Assembly (NCBI GenBank): GCA_002698995.1
Contig: PAAX01000029.1
Coordinates: 1 to 37,289 of the forward strand
Source: Ignavibacteriota bacterium
Lineage (GTDB): Bacteria > Bacteroidota > Ignavibacteria > Ignavibacteriales > Melioribacteraceae
Length of the DNA: 37,289 nucleotides
Direction of reading: 5' to 3'
Shown here: positions 687-37,289 of the stretch, in pieces
How the letters are laid out: every line of letters starts with the position of its first letter
How positions within the stretch are numbered: position 1 is the stretch's first letter
The notes under the pieces: model-generated
What the model saw: the letters and a program-made list of their open reading frames with translations, nothing else
Told to the model about the DNA's origin: nothing
Database searches by the model: none
Made by a program: the position numbers and the translations under genes

Positions 687-2435
687 TTATTTTATTAATA
701 ACATCTTGTTACTCTTTATATAATCATTTGCCTTTATTGTGTATATGTATACTCCGCTTGGCAACTTTTCCGCATTAAACTCCACTTGATGCATTCCTTC
801 TGATTTTAATTCATTTACCAATTCAGCTATTTCGTTTCCAAGAATATCATAGACTTTCAAACTTATATGCGTATTACTTGGTGTTGAGTATTCAATAATT
901 GTTTTTGGGTTAAAAGGGTTAGGGTAGTTTTGATATAAATTGTATGATGTGACAATTAGTTCACTTTCTTCAACACTTACCAAAGCTGTTGGTTTGTAAA
1001 TTTTGGTTTTTAATTCATGATCCTGATAATTATTAAAAACTCTATTTGTCATTATTAGAAGTTCCTCAAATCCATCAAAATTAATATCATACATTGTTGC
1101 TCCAAAATATACTCCCTCTGATTGTTCAAAATTATTCAGCTTCAAATAGAACAGTTCAAAACTCCACTCATTTTCTTCTCCGGTGAATTTCAATAACATA
1201 AATGTTTGATCTAAACATAAACCTATTTCTTCTGTTCCATCATTATCAATGTCTACAGGAAAACCATTGTATGCATCGAAAGAAAATCTCCCTATAATAT
1301 CTATTACATGTTTTGCTTCATATTGGTTGTTTCCTATTGCCTCTAAACAAGACAACCTTGTTATCGGTACTTCATCATAAAATGCCGCTCCTCCAACCCA
1401 TATTTCTTTCTTCCCGTTTTTGTCAATATCATTTGTGTTAAAATGAATGTAGACATTATATGTCCCCCCATCTCCATACCAAACATCACGATAGTTTTGT
1501 ATGTTTTCATCATATTCAAATATTACTATGTCTCCGCGTAAACCTCCAGTACTTAAATCAGCATACTCATCTCCGTCAATATCTTGGTTAGTTAAACCTG
1601 CAAGGTAAAATATATCTTCCGGGATTTGATAAACATATACAGTAGAAGTTGTATTTGTATTATCATCATATCTGGCAGCTACAACTCTTCGATCACGACC
1701 TTCTCCGCAATAAAATAAATCCGATCCCTCTCGTTTGTCATATTCCCCCCAAAGAGGATCATTCATTTGATTCCATTGTTTATAATCAAAAATAATTTCA
1801 GTAGGCAAATTTGTACTATCATTTATTCCAAGTATTCTCGCCACACGGATTCCTGCTAAAGTATCTGATCCAGGTTCATTTCCGGTAATAAAGACATTTG
1901 GTTTGCCGTCTTGATCGACATCGTATATTTGTTTGAATGATCCATAAGATTCAAGACCTTCCCAGGGCATGTCAGTCTTATATTTAAATCGTTTAGTATC
2001 TGGATTATATTCGTACATACTGCGCTCATTTATTCGAGGGTATGATCTGTACCTTGAGCCATATAACTCAGTTTTACCGTTTTGATTTACGTCCCCAACA
2101 ATTATTGTTTCCGGTGTAAAAGATCCAACCGGGACAGAAGTCCAATATTCATACATACCAGTAAATTGGGTAGTATCTACTAGATCGGGATAGATTTTTG
2201 CAGTATTAACTTGGTTTTTATTTCCTACTGTTTTTGGCACATAATTGTTCAAATTCTTGTAGGTTGTTCTGCCAGAAATAATATTTGTGATTTTGTAAAC
2301 TTCATCTTTTGCATCAAATTTCTCTATGCTTTTATAATTATCTATTTCTAATTTTTGTAGCAACCCTTCTCTTGTCTGACCATTTACAATGCCAAATATC
2401 AATACCAAAATAATTTTGAATGTTCGTTTGTTCAT
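687..2435 (-). CDS. Secreted FG-GAP/VCBS-like repeat protein with T9SS type-A tail
   Basis: This 582-residue exported protein has an N-terminal signal peptide (about residues 1-19, hydrophobic IILVLIFGIVNG). The central part carries at least six calcium-loop-like D-x-[DN]-x-[DN]-G repeats, such as DVNQNGKTEL, DVDQDGKPNV, DIDGDEYADL, DIDKNGKKEI, DIDNDGTEEI and DINFDGFEEL. They are spaced as in FG-GAP/VCBS beta-propellers. The last 85 or so residues are a type IX sorting domain, starting at 'NYPNPFNPKTIIEYS' and ending in KKxLLxK style (NKMLLIK). Family knowledge says such proteins cross the outer membrane by T9SS and are often surface-attached. Ligand or enzymatic activity is unknown. It lies 32 bp downstream of the next T9SS gene and is probably co-transcribed with it. 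The ATG at 2435 has a poor SD. Confidence 0.85.
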   Translation of the reverse strand: MNKRTFKIILVLIFGIVNGQTREGLLQKLEIDNYKSIEKFDAKDEVYKITNIISGRTTYKNLNNYVPKTVGNKNQVNTAKIYPDLVDTTQFTGMYEYWTSVPVGSFTPETIIVGDVNQNGKTELYGSRYRSYPRINERSMYEYNPDTKRFKYKTDMPWEGLESYGSFKQIYDVDQDGKPNVFITGNEPGSDTLAGIRVARILGINDSTNLPTEIIFDYKQWNQMNDPLWGEYDKREGSDLFYCGEGRDRRVVAARYDDNTNTTSTVYVYQIPEDIFYLAGLTNQDIDGDEYADLSTGGLRGDIVIFEYDENIQNYRDVWYGDGGTYNVYIHFNTNDIDKNGKKEIWVGGAAFYDEVPITRLSCLEAIGNNQYEAKHVIDIIGRFSFDAYNGFPVDIDNDGTEEIGLCLDQTFMLLKFTGEENEWSFELFYLKLNNFEQSEGVYFGATMYDINFDGFEELLIMTNRVFNNYQDHELKTKIYKPTALVSVEESELIVTSYNLYQNYPNPFNPKTIIEYSTPSNTHISLKVYDILGNEIAELVNELKSEGMHQVEFNAEKLPSGVYIYTIKANDYIKSNKMLLIK

Positions 2436-2467: not shown

Positions 2468-3343
2468 TTATTTGATTAACATCATCTTCTTACTTGTTAC
2501 AAAATCGTTTACTTGAAGTCTGTAGATATAAACTCCACTTGAAAGATTACTTGCATTAAAGTTTACTTTATAATTTCCCGCTGATTTTTGTTCATTAACC
2601 AATGCTGCTACTTCCCTTCCAAGAATATCGAACACTTTCAAACTTACATACTCTGTACTTGGTACTGAGTACTCAATATTAGTGGTTGGATTAAAGGGAT
2701 TAGGATAATTCTGATATAATTCATATTTCATTTCCGTTACATCATCTTCCTCTACACTTGTAACATAATTTGTATCCCCATATACTTTCCCATTTATTAC
2801 ACATCCTTTTAATACATAATAAATATATCCTTCCGTATCTTCATACAGTCTGCCTATTTCATCTGCCCACAAAGAGGTTTGAGTTAATAGCCCTTTATAA
2901 TCAGATCTTATTTCCCTTACTGTCATTTTTGTTCCAAAAACATTCGTCTCATATGTGCTTTCGACCCAACTCAAATATTCGCCAGGAGCATTCTCAGGAT
3001 AGTATTCAATTGTGTCCCCAATCTCCCATCCAACTTTATAATATGGTGATTCTGTATTAGGATATGTATCAATCTTGGAAAATACATAGTACAAGCTATC
3101 TTTAGAATCAAATCGTAAATATCTAAATGTATCAGTAAATTCCTCATCAGTTTGATACATAAAGTAAGGTTTATCATTAATTATCACAGTAGTATCTAAA
3201 ATAGTTGTTTTTCTACGCACGCCATTTTCATCTTCCCAAATCCAATAATTACCTGAGCTTAAAGGAGCTGGAAACTGAGCAAACAGAAAAATATTCCCCA
3301 AAATGAAGAATAATAAAAGCGAGCTAAATAATTTTTGTTTCAT
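2468..3343 (-). CDS. Secreted protein of unknown function with T9SS type-A tail
   Basis: This 291-residue protein has a signal peptide (LFSSLLLFFILGNIFLFAQ) and an N-terminal domain of about 180 residues rich in Trp, Tyr and beta-strand-like segments (WIWEDENG, YYKVGWEIGDTIEYYP). It ends in a T9SS type-A domain from 'NYPNPFNPTTNIEYS' to 'KKMMLIK'. I do not recognise the N-terminal domain. Its sorting domain is close in sequence to that of the downstream 582-residue protein (VSLKVFDILG versus ISLKVYDILG). The two are 32 bp apart on the same strand and probably form a two-gene unit. Predicted location is the cell surface or outside the cell. Start is the ATG at 3343. Confidence 0.8.
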   Translation of the reverse strand: MKQKLFSSLLLFFILGNIFLFAQFPAPLSSGNYWIWEDENGVRRKTTILDTTVIINDKPYFMYQTDEEFTDTFRYLRFDSKDSLYYVFSKIDTYPNTESPYYKVGWEIGDTIEYYPENAPGEYLSWVESTYETNVFGTKMTVREIRSDYKGLLTQTSLWADEIGRLYEDTEGYIYYVLKGCVINGKVYGDTNYVTSVEEDDVTEMKYELYQNYPNPFNPTTNIEYSVPSTEYVSLKVFDILGREVAALVNEQKSAGNYKVNFNASNLSSGVYIYRLQVNDFVTSKKMMLIK

Positions 3344-17663: not shown

Positions 17664-19643
17664 TTATTTGATTAAAAGCATTTTCTTAACTTCTCTAACT
17701 TCAAAACCGCCGTCAATTTCGCTTGTCTGTGCTTCTAAAGTATAAAAATACATTCCCGAAGTAAGATTCGAAGCATCAAAATTAATTTCATAAAATCCGC
17801 TTGTCTGCTGGCCGTTTACTAGAATTGCAACAGTTTCTCCTAATGAATTATAAACCGCAACTTTTACATTGCTGTTATAAGGTAATGAATATCTTAAAGT
17901 TGTTGAAGGGTTAAATGGATTAGGATAATTCTGCTCCAACACATAAACAGAAGGAACAACTTCAATTTCCACAACTTGTGAATAATTTACTGTTCCGTCG
18001 TAATCAACTTGTTTTAATCTATACTCAACTTTGCTGCCGTTTACATTGTTAAGATTATCTGTGTAAGTATAATTTGATGTTCTAGCAGTAGTTCCCTTAC
18101 CCGCAATAAATGAAACTCTTTGCCATTCACTGCTTTGGTTTTCTGATATTACTCTTCTTTGAATTTCAAATCCTTCGTTGTTTGTTTCTGTTGCTGTGGT
18201 CCAATTAAGAGTAACATTTGAACCTGCAGCATTAGCAGTAAATGCCGTCAATTCAACAGGAATTAAATCATTCTGATAAACAATAAATAATTTTCCAACG
18301 CTGTCATTTGTTAAAACGTATGAACTATTTGACTTCATATCCACATCGATAGAACCAGATTGATCTTGTAATCTGAATGAACCTTCGGGAAATTTTGTTT
18401 GATCCCATTCAAATGTAAAAGGATAACTGCTTGATGGTGATTGGAAAACCAATTCCCAAGTTTCCATCATTGATGAAGATGATCTTAAATCCATTAATGA
18501 AGCTTTTGTGTTATCACCTGGATTAATAAATCTCGCATCAAAAAATCCCGACTCGATAGATGAAGCTAAAGAAACTTCACCAAACCCAACATCCAAACCG
18601 GAAGAAGCATTATCGTCTATACCAAATGTAACAACTTGCTTATGACTTAAATCTCTTGAAGCATCCGTTACTGTTATATGAATTTCTTTTGTAGAAAATG
18701 GAGGATCATTAAATAGTGAAGAACGGAAGCCGATATTTGTTGCCGACATTCTTTGAGTTTGTCCGTCAGTAAAAATATTCATACAAAGATCATTTGTATA
18801 ATCCATGTAGTTTTCAATCATATCAACCGATCCGCATGAAGTATGTCCTGTTGGGCAATTAAAATTTGCCGCATCAGATTCCGGTGTATCTGAAACAAGA
18901 TCGTCAACACCGCAAGGACCATCACCCCAGATATGATATAAACCTAACCAGTGCCCTACTTCGTGAGTTGCAGTTCTTCCTTTATTGTATGGTGCGGCAG
19001 GCGAATTAAATCCGAATGCAGAATAAAGTATTACAACACCATCTGTACTTGCTGATCCCGAATTTGGAAATTGAGCATATCCCAAAATACCACCTGTTAT
19101 ATTACAAACCCAAATGTTAAAATACTTGTTAGTTGGCCAAGCATTTACACCACCGCTCGATTCAAATTTAACTTGGTCATTTAAGCCGAATGTGGTTACT
19201 GTAGTTTGTTTTCTTGTTATACCTGTAGTTGGATTTCCCTCAGGATCAACTTGGGCTAAACGAAATACAATATTTGTATTTGACCCTACATCATCATTAT
19301 TGTATCCGGGAGTTCCTACCATTTTTCGAAAATCTTCATTTAGAACTCTTATTTGGCTCAGCACCATATTATCAGAAATATTTTGCGCCGAAGTTCTATA
19401 AACTATATGAACAACCGTTGGAATTACATAAACATTCTCTGCTTCTCTTTTTGCTAAACCGGAATTTATTATTTCTTGAAGTCTGCTTTCATTTAAATCC
19501 ATCTGCGATTCAAGTCTTGGATCCATTGATTTTAGTCTATCAAGATTTTCCATAGTGTAACATCTTACATACTTACTCTCCTGAGCAAATGTTATTGTGC
19601 CCAAAAGAGCAATTAGCAGAAAAATTGTAAGTCTTTTTGCCAT
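17664..19643 (-). CDS. Secreted M43 (pappalysin/cytophagalysin) zinc metalloprotease with T9SS tail
   Basis: This 659-residue protein has a signal peptide (RLTIFLLIALLGTITFA). The catalytic domain spans about 70-310 with the extended zinc motif H227-E-x-x-H231-x-x-G-x-x-H237 in 'THEVGHWLGLYHIWGDG' and the Met-turn region 'IENYMDY'. A central domain of unknown role follows. Next comes an Fn3-like module 'PVELTAFTANAAGSNVTLNW', the usual spacer before sorting domains in these bacteria. The T9SS type-A domain runs from 'NYPNPFNPSTTLRYS' to 'VKKMLLIK'. It likely cleaves extracellular proteins, together with the S8 and DPP4 enzymes. SD GAGGGA precedes the ATG at 19643. It is transcribed alone and ends at the terminator at 17585-17619. 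Confidence 0.93.
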   Translation of the reverse strand: MAKRLTIFLLIALLGTITFAQESKYVRCYTMENLDRLKSMDPRLESQMDLNESRLQEIINSGLAKREAENVYVIPTVVHIVYRTSAQNISDNMVLSQIRVLNEDFRKMVGTPGYNNDDVGSNTNIVFRLAQVDPEGNPTTGITRKQTTVTTFGLNDQVKFESSGGVNAWPTNKYFNIWVCNITGGILGYAQFPNSGSASTDGVVILYSAFGFNSPAAPYNKGRTATHEVGHWLGLYHIWGDGPCGVDDLVSDTPESDAANFNCPTGHTSCGSVDMIENYMDYTNDLCMNIFTDGQTQRMSATNIGFRSSLFNDPPFSTKEIHITVTDASRDLSHKQVVTFGIDDNASSGLDVGFGEVSLASSIESGFFDARFINPGDNTKASLMDLRSSSSMMETWELVFQSPSSSYPFTFEWDQTKFPEGSFRLQDQSGSIDVDMKSNSSYVLTNDSVGKLFIVYQNDLIPVELTAFTANAAGSNVTLNWTTATETNNEGFEIQRRVISENQSSEWQRVSFIAGKGTTARTSNYTYTDNLNNVNGSKVEYRLKQVDYDGTVNYSQVVEIEVVPSVYVLEQNYPNPFNPSTTLRYSLPYNSNVKVAVYNSLGETVAILVNGQQTSGFYEINFDASNLTSGMYFYTLEAQTSEIDGGFEVREVKKMLLIK

Positions 19644-33739: not shown

Positions 33740-33773
33740 CGTCGCTTCGCTCCTAACTTGAAGCGACGTTTTT
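33740..33773 (+). terminator. Terminator 1 after CHAD gene
   Basis: CGTCGCTTC (33740-33748) pairs with GAAGCGACG (33760-33768) over 9 bp and is followed by TTTTT. It is 70 bp past the CHAD stop. Confidence 0.75.
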
Positions 33774-33814: not shown

Positions 33815-33851
33815 AAACTCCCGCAATTTAAAAAATTGCGGGAGTTTTTGT
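33815..33851 (+). terminator. Terminator 2 between CHAD and nuclease genes
   Basis: AAACTCCCGCAATTT (33815-33829) pairs perfectly with AAATTGCGGGAGTTT (33833-33847), a 15-bp stem with a three-base loop. A T-rich tail follows in the plus direction. It sits between convergent genes and may also stop minus-strand transcripts, although that side lacks a T-run beyond the stem. Confidence 0.85.
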
Positions 33852-33893: not shown

Positions 33894-35636
33894 TTATTTG
33901 AGCAGCATCATCTTTCTAACTTGCGAGAGGCCGGCAGTATTTAATTTGTAAATATAAACTCCGCTTGGAAATCCATGTGCATCAAAGTTTACTTTATAAT
34001 TTCCCGGTTGTTTTGTTTCGTTTACTAATGTTGCAATTTCATTTCCTAGTACATCATAAACTTTCAATGAAACTTGTGTGGACAACTCATGAGTTGTCCC
34101 TACGTTATTTGGGATAGAATATTCTATTGTGGTATTAGGGTTAAACGGATTCGGGAAATTCTGATTTAGTCCAAACTCAGTTGGAATTTCTTCTTTATCA
34201 TTAACAGAAACTGCGTTCTTAAAACTAAAATCTACAACCAAAGGAATATGATCCGATGCATTTACAACATCTTCTTTCTGTAAATTATATTTTGTGAGAC
34301 TATCAGCCGGTAAAGCTCTTGTAAAGAGAGAAAAGCCGTTTTCCTTTTCCAATACAGAATTTGAATAAACCACATAATCTAATCTGCCCGGAAAGAAAGA
34401 ACTGCTTTCACTAAACCATGTAAAAGTTGTGTTGGTATTGGTTGTAATTGGTTTAGAATCTGCCAAAGCTGTTTCATCCCAATCCGGATTAAAATCTGCT
34501 CCGTAAATACCGTTATAAAAAATATCTCCGGTAATTAAAGTTGTCTGCTGTCTTTTTAAGCCAACCAGATTCATATCTCCAACAATTACAATCGGTGTAT
34601 TTTCTTCAATAGGAATTGAACTTGTACCGTTTTTCGAATCGCGGAGAAAAGCCATAAATGCATCAATCTCTTCCTGTCTTTCAATATCATTTGTACAGCA
34701 AGGTGGATGGGCGCTGATAAAGAAAAGATCGGAATCATATTTTGGTCTTAAATCTAGAAGAAAAATTCCGTTGCCGTCGGTCTGTGCAGATTTCTTAACC
34801 GGAAATTTACTAACAACAATAATATCGGGAACTGCACTTGAACTGTACCAAGTTTCATCAGGCAGAATTGATTGAACAAAGTTTTTAACTTCTGCTGCCG
34901 AGTGATCATAAATTTCTTGAAATCCAATCACATCAGGATTAACAGCTTTTATTATTCTTTCAAAATATGCTTTCTTATTGTTGTCAAAAGGAGAATCGCG
35001 TTCTACGTTGTAAGATAAAATTCTTAAATGATCTTCATTCAATTTGCTGATTGAGTATGATTTATATTCAATCAAGTTTTTTTTCATTGCATAATCAACA
35101 CTTCCCAAATCGGGTAATCTATCACTGCCGGTATCTTCAACTATTATCTTTATATTATCAGAAGGATAAAGGATATTGCCCGATATTACAGAACTTTTAT
35201 AAATGCAGAATTCAAATCTATCCGACGTAACAGTCGGAGAGTTAATCAATTCAATATCATCATGAAAAACATTAACCGAACTTCCATTTGAGAAATAATA
35301 TTTTCCTCTTCTTTCACCAAATGTAAATTGAAAATCTACACCAATTCCATCTTTTGATAATCCTGTAGAGGAATTATTATCGGTATCAATAAAAAGATTT
35401 ATCGAATTGTTATCCTGGAGATTAATTTCAGTACCGACTTCCAGCAGAAAATAAATAAATTCTTCATCATCATTTACATAAAGCTTTCCGAAATTAATAC
35501 TGGATTGATTATCATCAAGAGAATCGGAATAAACCAACATATCATCAGTCCAATCACTGAAATCTTCATCTAAAATAATTTGCTGGGGAAAAACGATTGT
35601 AATCAAAGTAAAAAAAGTAATTAGTATTTTGGTCAT
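33894..35636 (-). CDS. Secreted endonuclease/exonuclease/phosphatase-fold protein with T9SS tail
   Basis: This 580-residue protein has a signal peptide (ILITFFTLITIVFPQ). Residues about 20-190 form a beta domain beginning 'ILDEDFSDWTDD', like CBM9/DOMON modules that precede catalytic domains in secreted enzymes. The EEP domain (about 205-475) has 'LSYNVERDS', metal-binding Glu in 'VIGFQEIYD', 'VGDMNLVG' and the terminal 'ASDHIPLVVDF', so the active site looks intact. It may act as an extracellular nuclease or phosphodiesterase; substrate is unknown. The T9SS type-A domain runs from 'NFPNPFNPNTTIEYS' to 'RKMMLLK'. Uniquely among the tails here, it carries eight extra residues (VGTTHELS) after 'IPNN', encoded by a GTAG plus 20-bp palindrome (separate entry). 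The ATG is at 35636. Confidence 0.88.
   Translation of the reverse strand: MTKILITFFTLITIVFPQQIILDEDFSDWTDDMLVYSDSLDDNQSSINFGKLYVNDDEEFIYFLLEVGTEINLQDNNSINLFIDTDNNSSTGLSKDGIGVDFQFTFGERRGKYYFSNGSSVNVFHDDIELINSPTVTSDRFEFCIYKSSVISGNILYPSDNIKIIVEDTGSDRLPDLGSVDYAMKKNLIEYKSYSISKLNEDHLRILSYNVERDSPFDNNKKAYFERIIKAVNPDVIGFQEIYDHSAAEVKNFVQSILPDETWYSSSAVPDIIVVSKFPVKKSAQTDGNGIFLLDLRPKYDSDLFFISAHPPCCTNDIERQEEIDAFMAFLRDSKNGTSSIPIEENTPIVIVGDMNLVGLKRQQTTLITGDIFYNGIYGADFNPDWDETALADSKPITTNTNTTFTWFSESSSFFPGRLDYVVYSNSVLEKENGFSLFTRALPADSLTKYNLQKEDVVNASDHIPLVVDFSFKNAVSVNDKEEIPTEFGLNQNFPNPFNPNTTIEYSIPNNVGTTHELSTQVSLKVYDVLGNEIATLVNETKQPGNYKVNFDAHGFPSGVYIYKLNTAGLSQVRKMMLLK
34080..34103 (-). repeat. REP-like GTAG palindrome inserted in frame in a coding sequence
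   Basis: The plus strand shows the perfect 20-bp palindrome GGACAACTCATGAGTTGTCC (34080-34099) followed by CTAC. Read on the minus strand this is GTAG directly 5' of the palindrome, 24 bp in all. It encodes VGTTHELS within the T9SS domain of the nuclease gene. Paralogous tails in this window have 7 residues between the 'YS' and the 'SLKVYD' strand, whereas this one has 15, a difference of exactly 24 bp. Confidence 0.75.
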
Positions 35637-37119: not shown

Positions 37120-37289
37120 AATGTAATTTGTACATTCGCTCACCAAGCATTTGGGCAAGGAATGTAGTTTGTACATTTGTCCACCGAGCATTTGGGCGAG
37201 GAATGTAGTTTGTACATTCGTCCACCAAGCATTTTGGCAAGGAATGTAGTTTGTACATTCGTCCACCAAGCATTTTGGCAAGGAATGTA
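37120..37289. repeat. 41-bp tandem repeat array, truncated by window edge
   Basis: Four full units (37120-37160, 37161-37201, 37202-37242, 37243-37283) are followed by six bases of a fifth. Units 3 and 4 are identical; units 1 and 2 differ from them at a few positions. Each unit contains AATGTAGTTTGTACATT, whose ends pair, and CCAAGCATTTTGG, also self-complementary. There are no unique spacers. The 41-bp period is not a multiple of three, so it is not a protein repeat. Confidence 0.92.

Follow-up and report, generated by a model that had tools for sequence, protein, structure and literature searches.

A palindrome within a secretion signal

REPs are named for their extragenic position, and how they spread is poorly understood. 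The window (the whole stretch of 37,289 nucleotides analysed here) raises the question of how an element of this kind came to be translated within the T9SS sorting domain of a putative nuclease. On the minus strand, positions 34103-34080 read GTAGGGACAACTCATGAGTTGTCC, that is, GTAG followed by a perfect 20-bp palindrome, and the codons GTA GGG ACA ACT CAT GAG TTG TCC are translated in frame into VGTTHELS, exactly as an earlier note on this DNA had described. The sorting domain scores above the curated cut-offs of both PF18962 (36.4 bits, cut-off 27) and TIGR04183 (37.5 bits, cut-off 23), and on these profiles the host protein is predicted to belong to the T9SS type A sorting-domain proteins. 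The residue counts given for its spacer were likewise correct, with 15 residues in the nuclease tail versus 7 in two tails quoted for comparison (TPSNTHI and VPSTEYV). The equation of the 8-residue excess with a 24-bp element stands as far as the net gain is concerned, which fits the nuclease tail, but the unit that is repeated in the genome measures 28 bp, not 24. The features and their coordinates are collected in Table 1.

Table 1. Features of the window, and tail-only palindromes of the source genome (G000), with their positions
Feature	Position	Strand	Basis
28-bp double-foot REP copy, in frame	34076..34103	-	26/28 bases match the family 28-mer
Perfect 20-bp palindrome core	34080..34099	.	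13 exact genomic places, the window one included
Intact 5' foot GTAG	34100..34103	-	sequence
Altered 3' foot ACAC (family: CTAC)	34076..34079	-	comparison with family copies
Host gene, 580-aa Exo_endo_phos (PF03372) protein with C-terminal T9SS sorting domain	33894..35636	-	profile matches
T9SS type A sorting domain (PF18962/TIGR04183), REP in the strand 2-3 loop of its model	33906..34157	-	
Comparison tail, canonical loop, no insert	2480..2707	-	
Comparison tail, canonical loop, no insert	702..926	-	
Comparison tail, canonical loop, no insert	17721..17927	-	
Tail-only palindromes (GAGAAATCTTnAAGATTTCTC, GTAGGGGACGCAAAcTTTGCATCCCCTAC)	G000:C15:102386, C17:16370, C17:67297		

A family of double-foot REPs

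A palindrome of this size might have arisen by chance in ordinary coding DNA. The 20-mer occurs once in the window and in none of 100 shuffles, and 6 of 60 Markov-1 simulations of the window contain a palindrome with arms of at least 10 bp, so that the palindrome by itself is not decisive, while the multi-copy family to which it belongs is. In the genome of 4.23 Mb the 20-mer was found at 15 places when up to three mismatches were allowed (13 of them exact, the other two with one and three mismatches), whereas the same pattern read backwards gave none; copies lie outside genes and in other genomes as well, which leaves a chance origin with a negligible probability. The element is thus not unique in its genome, a result that the earlier note would have taken as a refutation had it been otherwise.

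Alignment of the places gives a repeat unit of 28 bp, GTAGGGACAACTCATGAGTTGTCCCTAC, whose palindrome is bounded by a foot on either side (GTAG...CTAC). The designation as a REP with a GTAG foot therefore holds in that the element is REP-like and multi-copy, but has to be amended to a 28-bp double-foot REP with CTAC as the second foot; the family has both feet at the ends of its long palindrome, while the window copy, with ACAC, lacks the second. With up to three mismatches the 28-mer is present at 14 places in G000 (12 of them exact) and in 11 of 97 genomes, the source genome counted, and pairing is preserved in the variants CAGCTCATGAGCTG, CAACTCGCGAGTTG and CAATTCATGAATTG. A wider superfamily pattern, GTAGRGWCRN10YGWCYCTAC, which leaves the ten central bases free, matches exactly 29 times in G000 and is found in 44 of the 97 genomes (source genome included), its backward control giving 0 in all 97; most of the superfamily places listed are self-complementary in the free central part too. 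When two mismatches were allowed in six genomes, 57, 61, 22, 16, 36 and 58 matches were obtained (250 in total), against 1, 0, 0, 0, 1 and 6 (8 in total) for the backward control.

Read from the sequence, the sole open frame of the 28-mer gives V-G-T-T-H-E-L-S-L on both strands alike, so that its orientation is irrelevant; the window copy with its next two bases gives V-G-T-T-H-E-L-S-T-Q. CTAC is followed by a purine (A or G) at 94 of 122 ends that lie outside ORFs and at 65 of 74 within them, which fits the cutting at CT or CA reported for TnpAREP enzymes in the available passages of PMC8266576.

A RAYT gene that carries the repeat

The earlier note had suggested looking for a RAYT gene, and one that carries copies of the element was found at G000:C31:261102-261614. 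Its product scores 27.5 bits with PF01797 (cut-off 23) and 64.7 bits with NCBIfam REP_Tyr_transpos NF047646, under the cut-off of 80; the first PDB fold match of its model is 4er8, a RAYT bound to a REP hairpin. In alignment A3 it shows NHFH, KWQ and YIEENP (the HUH, WQ and Y-x-x-x-NP motifs), and differs from the NP(L/V)(R/K)xG motif given in the available part of PMC2817692 in that the final G is missing. By these motifs and the modelled fold, the protein is a predicted RAYT/TnpAREP. Identical 28-mers stand upstream of the gene, in frame inside it, and downstream, the flanking copies at C31:260984 and C31:261692. The inner copy follows NHFHG in a 182-codon open frame and would sit, after the HUH motif, in a loop that the model leaves poorly ordered.

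This arrangement recalls the double-foot REPs of TnpAREP subclass 2.4, which PMC6006769, in the passages available, describes with 5' GT[AG]G and 3' C[TC]AC feet, with NH[IFV]H and WQ motifs in the enzyme, as abundant in Bacteroidetes, and with REPs in frame within tnpAREP genes. The present family matches in its feet, in both motifs and in the REP inside the transposase gene, and it has a multi-copy REP flanking the RAYT gene and an in-frame REP between HuH and Y, both traits of that subclass. In those passages the insertions described are in the transposase gene, with no mention of T9SS tails and with a pointer to an earlier report for REP insertions in other genes, whereas here mostly secreted-protein modules are entered. 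The E. coli TnpAREP (4er8) and the group 3 TnpAREPs of PMC8266576, as far as the part of that source available goes, share the RAYT fold and the GTAG foot, and cutting at CT or CA would fit CTAC|A; their REPs have one foot, the present family two.

Among 30 RAYT loci, 22 gave an ORF by the search pattern, and 14 of these 22, that of G000 included, have an in-loop palindrome; among the other eight, L104 has a like peptide. We know of no biochemistry for TnpAREP subclass 2.4. The idea of a self-encoded recognition loop, with the inner REP always equal to the flanking ones, found no support: all three agree at L103, but at L106 the inner palindrome differs from the flanking ones. In the RAYT-like ORFs L222 and L232 (G042 and G054) at least two REPs lie in the loop after HUH in another frame, giving RRDKSRLVPT-like peptides.

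The sorting-tail loop as a host site

Regular expressions found 118 sorting tails in G000 (a profile found 134), and since six of the 118 were left unmeasured, loop lengths refer to 112 tails, 92 with the canonical loop length and 20 with a longer one. Palindromes with arms of at least 9 bp are present in 7 of the 20 longer-loop tails and in none of the 92 canonical ones. In a separate set of loci, 102 of 141 tails without the 28-mer have anchors exactly 13 residues apart, while the 41 tails with it have 16 to 27 residues between the anchors, a net gain of 3 to 14 residues, with the same codon phase in 41 of 41. A clean insertion of 24 or 30 bp was considered as a general rule and rejected, since the window tail gains 8 residues and others between 3 and 14.

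In the model of the nuclease tail (mean pLDDT 90.4) strands 2 and 3, at residues 16-23 and 35-42, flank the insert, which would thus lie in the β2-β3 loop; the model is less certain in the insert blocks themselves (pLDDT 76 and 83). Its first fold match is the mirolase CTD 8qb1, and is weak (E 2.2e-3). In the parts of PMC11285876 available, Lβ3β4 and the C-terminus are reported to matter for export by the P. gingivalis CTD, and LKK, which from the context is the mirolase CTD, is said to have a much longer Lβ2β3. The claim that the element entered a tolerant loop is thus in keeping with the variable loop length and with the position predicted by the model. The number of such tails is large, from 73 to at least 150 in the six genomes counted.

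REPs were also seen at neighbouring positions: at L084:1447 and L171:358 (G000), 28-mer-like REPs occupy the linker that immediately precedes the T9SS tail (VETHRGVSLP and VEMLRATSLP), and at L332:1500 a REP lies in a different loop of the tail, its last residues replacing the usual LPSGVYFY start (FN[VETRHASSLP]SGVYFY).

The nuclease orthologues

Whether the element is old or recent in the nuclease can be approached through its orthologues. In alignment A1 the element is present in 4 of 19 nuclease sequences (the window, G042, G043 and G055) and absent from the other 15, an absence that the earlier note had anticipated, and no sharing of the eight residues across genera with non-palindromic codons was found in them. 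The G042 insert, VGTAHELSV, is a variant of its own with its own junction; the G043 and G055 nucleases are identical proteins with the insert VGTTNELSLQ. Four of the 15 element-free sequences (L029, L031, L035 and L039) have other longer loops. A partial 20th orthologue outside A1, L044 from G054, has a different palindrome in the same loop (VKTGYIPSVE, GTAAAGACGGGATATATCCCGTCTGTAG), which belongs to a family also seen in G030.

The same loop of the same orthologue is occupied in three genera, which would also be expected had an ancient single insertion been passed down to G000, G042 and G043/G055 and disappeared from the other lineages. In a tree built without the tail, however, the carriers do not form one clade and need three changes, none of 200 bootstrap trees (0%) gives a single change, and strongly supported branches force at least two, though the tree is otherwise weak, with 10 of its 15 inner branches open. 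In addition, G023, of the same genus as G043 and G055, has no insert in its nuclease loop, the G042 insert stands apart in both variant and junction, and a different element occupies the loop in G054, which shares its genus with G042, all of which makes an ancient single insertion very improbable.

The closest full-length orthologue is 52% identical and the partial one 56%, and among the nuclease orthologues compared none offers an empty site in a near-identical gene, so that what is observed is the net gain, from which the inserted length may differ. Of the suggestion that the element jumped into the nuclease loop, the loop insert of a presumably mobile family can accordingly be retained, but a direct jump is less secure, given the distance of the orthologues and the occurrence of copying between tails.

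Distribution of copies and the question of targeting

In the nine genomes in which copies were classified, 50 of 83 lie outside ORFs, 3 in doubtful ORFs and 30 in clear genes; of the latter, the T9SS tail loop accounts for 23, an FN3-like loop for 4, RAYT genes for 2 and another protein for 1, so that secreted-protein modules hold 27 of the 30. The tally mixes definitions: the 20-mer with up to three mismatches for G000 (15 copies), the 28-mer with up to three mismatches for G043 (10), G055 (7), G023 (4) and G036 (3), other superfamily copies of these five genomes being excluded, and the exact superfamily pattern for G030 (15), G072 (14), G016 (9) and G082 (6/8). Three G072 copies in doubtful ORFs (L400 twice, L403) were kept apart from the gene counts, and L393 (G030) was tallied as having no ORF though it lies within an 88-codon RAYT remnant. 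G055 and G043 represent one genus whose tail copies are common by descent, the four of G055 probably being shared with G043 in this way; G072 and G023 have no tail copies in the tally. G042 (34 places) stands outside it, and the part that was read comprises 9 tail copies, 2 in RAYT-like ORFs, 11 outside ORFs and the nuclease copy L030. A second set of 98 copies, with 37 in ORFs (19 tail, 5 FN3-like, 13 RAYT), is biased by the RAYT and T9SS searches, and the 83-copy tally is preferred.

The FN3-like loop, so labelled by eye, has the motif GFEIQR...WE.IGF in secreted proteins and was entered in G000 by two element families (L007/L013/L014 and L064); among the four tallied carriers, three also encode a T9SS tail in that reading frame, and the fourth, L013, runs off its contig. 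The sole tallied REP in another clear ORF, L098 (G055:C23:20508), encodes VGTTHELSLK in a 585-codon frame, whose product may be DNA methylase-like. In L229 (G042) an FN3-like GFEVER loop also contains a different GTAG palindrome (GTAGCTCAGATTGC...GCAATCTGAGCAAC).

The concentration of in-gene copies in secreted-protein modules and the two RAYT loops could mean that the RAYT machinery prefers the DNA context of the tail loop, rather than that selection spares the insertions made there. In G043, tails account for ~0.8% of the genome yet contain 6 of 10 copies (P ~5e-11 in a naive binomial test), and all 41 tail copies keep one codon phase though a second frame is open in several families (RAYT inserts L222, L232 and L331); the excess of A or G after CTAC, set beside the CT/CA cutting reported in the available passages of PMC8266576, points the same way. 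The binomial test, however, assumes independent copies, and as copies are not independent where they have been copied, such enrichment tests overstate significance: when the G030 copies are collapsed to one event, P becomes ~0.05. It has to be noted that G016 and G082, whose tail counts were guessed, were excluded from these tests. In G072, with a tail count of at least 150, 0 of 14 copies lie in tails, which speaks against such a preference. Moreover, outside genes the flanking bases are biased in much the same way, the insertion ends examined revealed no target motif of greater length, and selection on the β-hairpin could fix the codon phase, so that a preference of the enzyme itself seems rather unlikely to us.

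Tail junctions differ among the G042 tails and among the G043 tails, which favours several insertions. Several element families and junctions thus recur at the tail loop, and not all of them are separate jumps, given copying and shared descent.

Copying between tails

Gene conversion or tail exchange could also have brought in the window copy together with part of another T9SS tail, in which case only the founding insertion would have been a transposition. Six G000 tails share the altered 3' end CGTCTCAAATGCA of another element family (VETL.., at 18 places in G000 with up to three mismatches and not confined to tails), eight G030 tails share one 3' junction, L[QH][HQ]VT, and the ACAC foot of the window copy recurs in a different tail, L199 of G043. 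The G030 tails agree in 27-28 of 28 element bases, whereas their downstream flanks show a mean identity of 76%, which suggests short-tract exchange between tails; identity between these flanks and canonical tails is 56%, a comparison limited to four canonical G030 tails. For the window copy itself, on the other hand, the G000 20-mer (up to three mismatches) is present in one other tail only (C14), diverged and with other junctions, so that no donor with the same junction is at hand, and the G042 tails mostly carry CAGCTCATGAGCTG, a variant also amplified in G042. Arrival of the window copy by tail exchange is therefore a doubtful but genuine possibility.

Some tails contain palindromes that are seen nowhere else. 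The long loops of L146, L189, L191 and L185 were tried as copies of the 28-mer element, and this was rejected; L146 and L189 share the palindrome GAGAAATCTTnAAGATTTCTC, present in G000 at those two tails only (up to one mismatch), and GTAGGGGACGCAAAcTTTGCATCCCCTAC, the palindrome of the L157 tail, has a single place in G000 (up to three mismatches). Such tail-only palindromes are possible fossils of lost repeat families, and to judge from the sequences the tails may keep element families that have vanished elsewhere, which the VETL.. family does not show.

Proposed mechanism and relation to known systems

The window feature is probably a copy of a RAYT-associated double-foot REP that lies in frame in the predicted β2-β3 loop of a T9SS tail and came there, directly or by way of another tail, through RAYT activity. 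The interpretation in the earlier note, that a T9SS tail contains a REP-like element read in frame, is supported, although the element itself had to be redefined and its setting has proved to be broader. This reading builds on the multi-copy family, the RAYT gene with its copies, the scattered carriers, the recurrent loop and the copying between tails. In the proposed model, the RAYT, an IS200/IS605-like HUH enzyme, would move single-stranded REP copies and put one into the loop of the nuclease tail, or into a sister tail from which it was later copied. An insertion of exactly 28 bp would put the codons behind it out of frame, and loss of flanking bases or later adjustment is therefore assumed; in-frame cases within tolerant loops would survive. 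The insert would be retained because the loop would be a surface turn dispensable for export and because the frame of the 28-mer is open in either orientation. After insertion the 3' foot would have drifted from CTAC to ACAC. With such a large tolerant target (73 to at least 150 tails per genome) similar events would recur, and a tail bearing the element could pass it to other tails via recombination.

Both REPs that are read in frame and REPs within RAYT genes have been published before. In its available passages, PMC3733652 describes GTAG-tagged palindromes within genes that are translated, as here, and that are thought to be neutral in linkers or loops. Its hosts are varied unrelated proteins, many of them in DNA synthesis or repair, whereas here almost only secreted-protein modules and RAYT are entered, at recurrent positions; in its main text the word "sorting" occurs 0 times and "secretion" once. 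The Rickettsia palindromic elements (RPEs) are, according to the same passages, palindromes that entered open reading frames without breaking the frame and have been kept there, with RPE-4 and RPE-6 grouped with CGTC repeats that have no dedicated transposase; they resemble the window REP in behaviour only, as in-frame palindromes, and their hosts differ. For recurrent insertion of REPs or palindromes into T9SS tails no description was found among the titles and abstract openings examined, which covered part of the longer listings of open-licence papers.

About a hundred homologous tolerant tails per genome would act as parallel traps that keep comparable insertions, and would make it possible to measure the rules of insertion and how far copying between tails extends. 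The tail sequences further suggest that T9SS signals may gain 3-14 residues in one loop and still be used, which is relevant to the question of which features the export machinery recognises. A more far-reaching proposal, which taken as a whole we consider unlikely, is that T9SS tails are a genomic safe harbour for RAYT elements, in that the enzyme or later recombination would favour β2-β3 loop DNA, of which there are about a hundred stretches per genome, that REP families would persist there in frame, pass from tail to tail and outlast the intergenic copies, and that a decapeptide dictated by the palindrome, V-[GE]-T-x4-S-L-Q, would have become a recurrent extension of the export signal.

Other repeats were noticed in the window. 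Two inverted repeats lie just 3' of the nuclease gene (33740-33768 and 33815-33847), one read by eye as CGTCGCTTC/GAAGCGACG and the other a terminator-like hairpin with 15-bp arms, and a 41-bp tandem unit (AATGTAGTTTGTACATTCGTCC...) is arrayed at the contig end, at 37120-37283.
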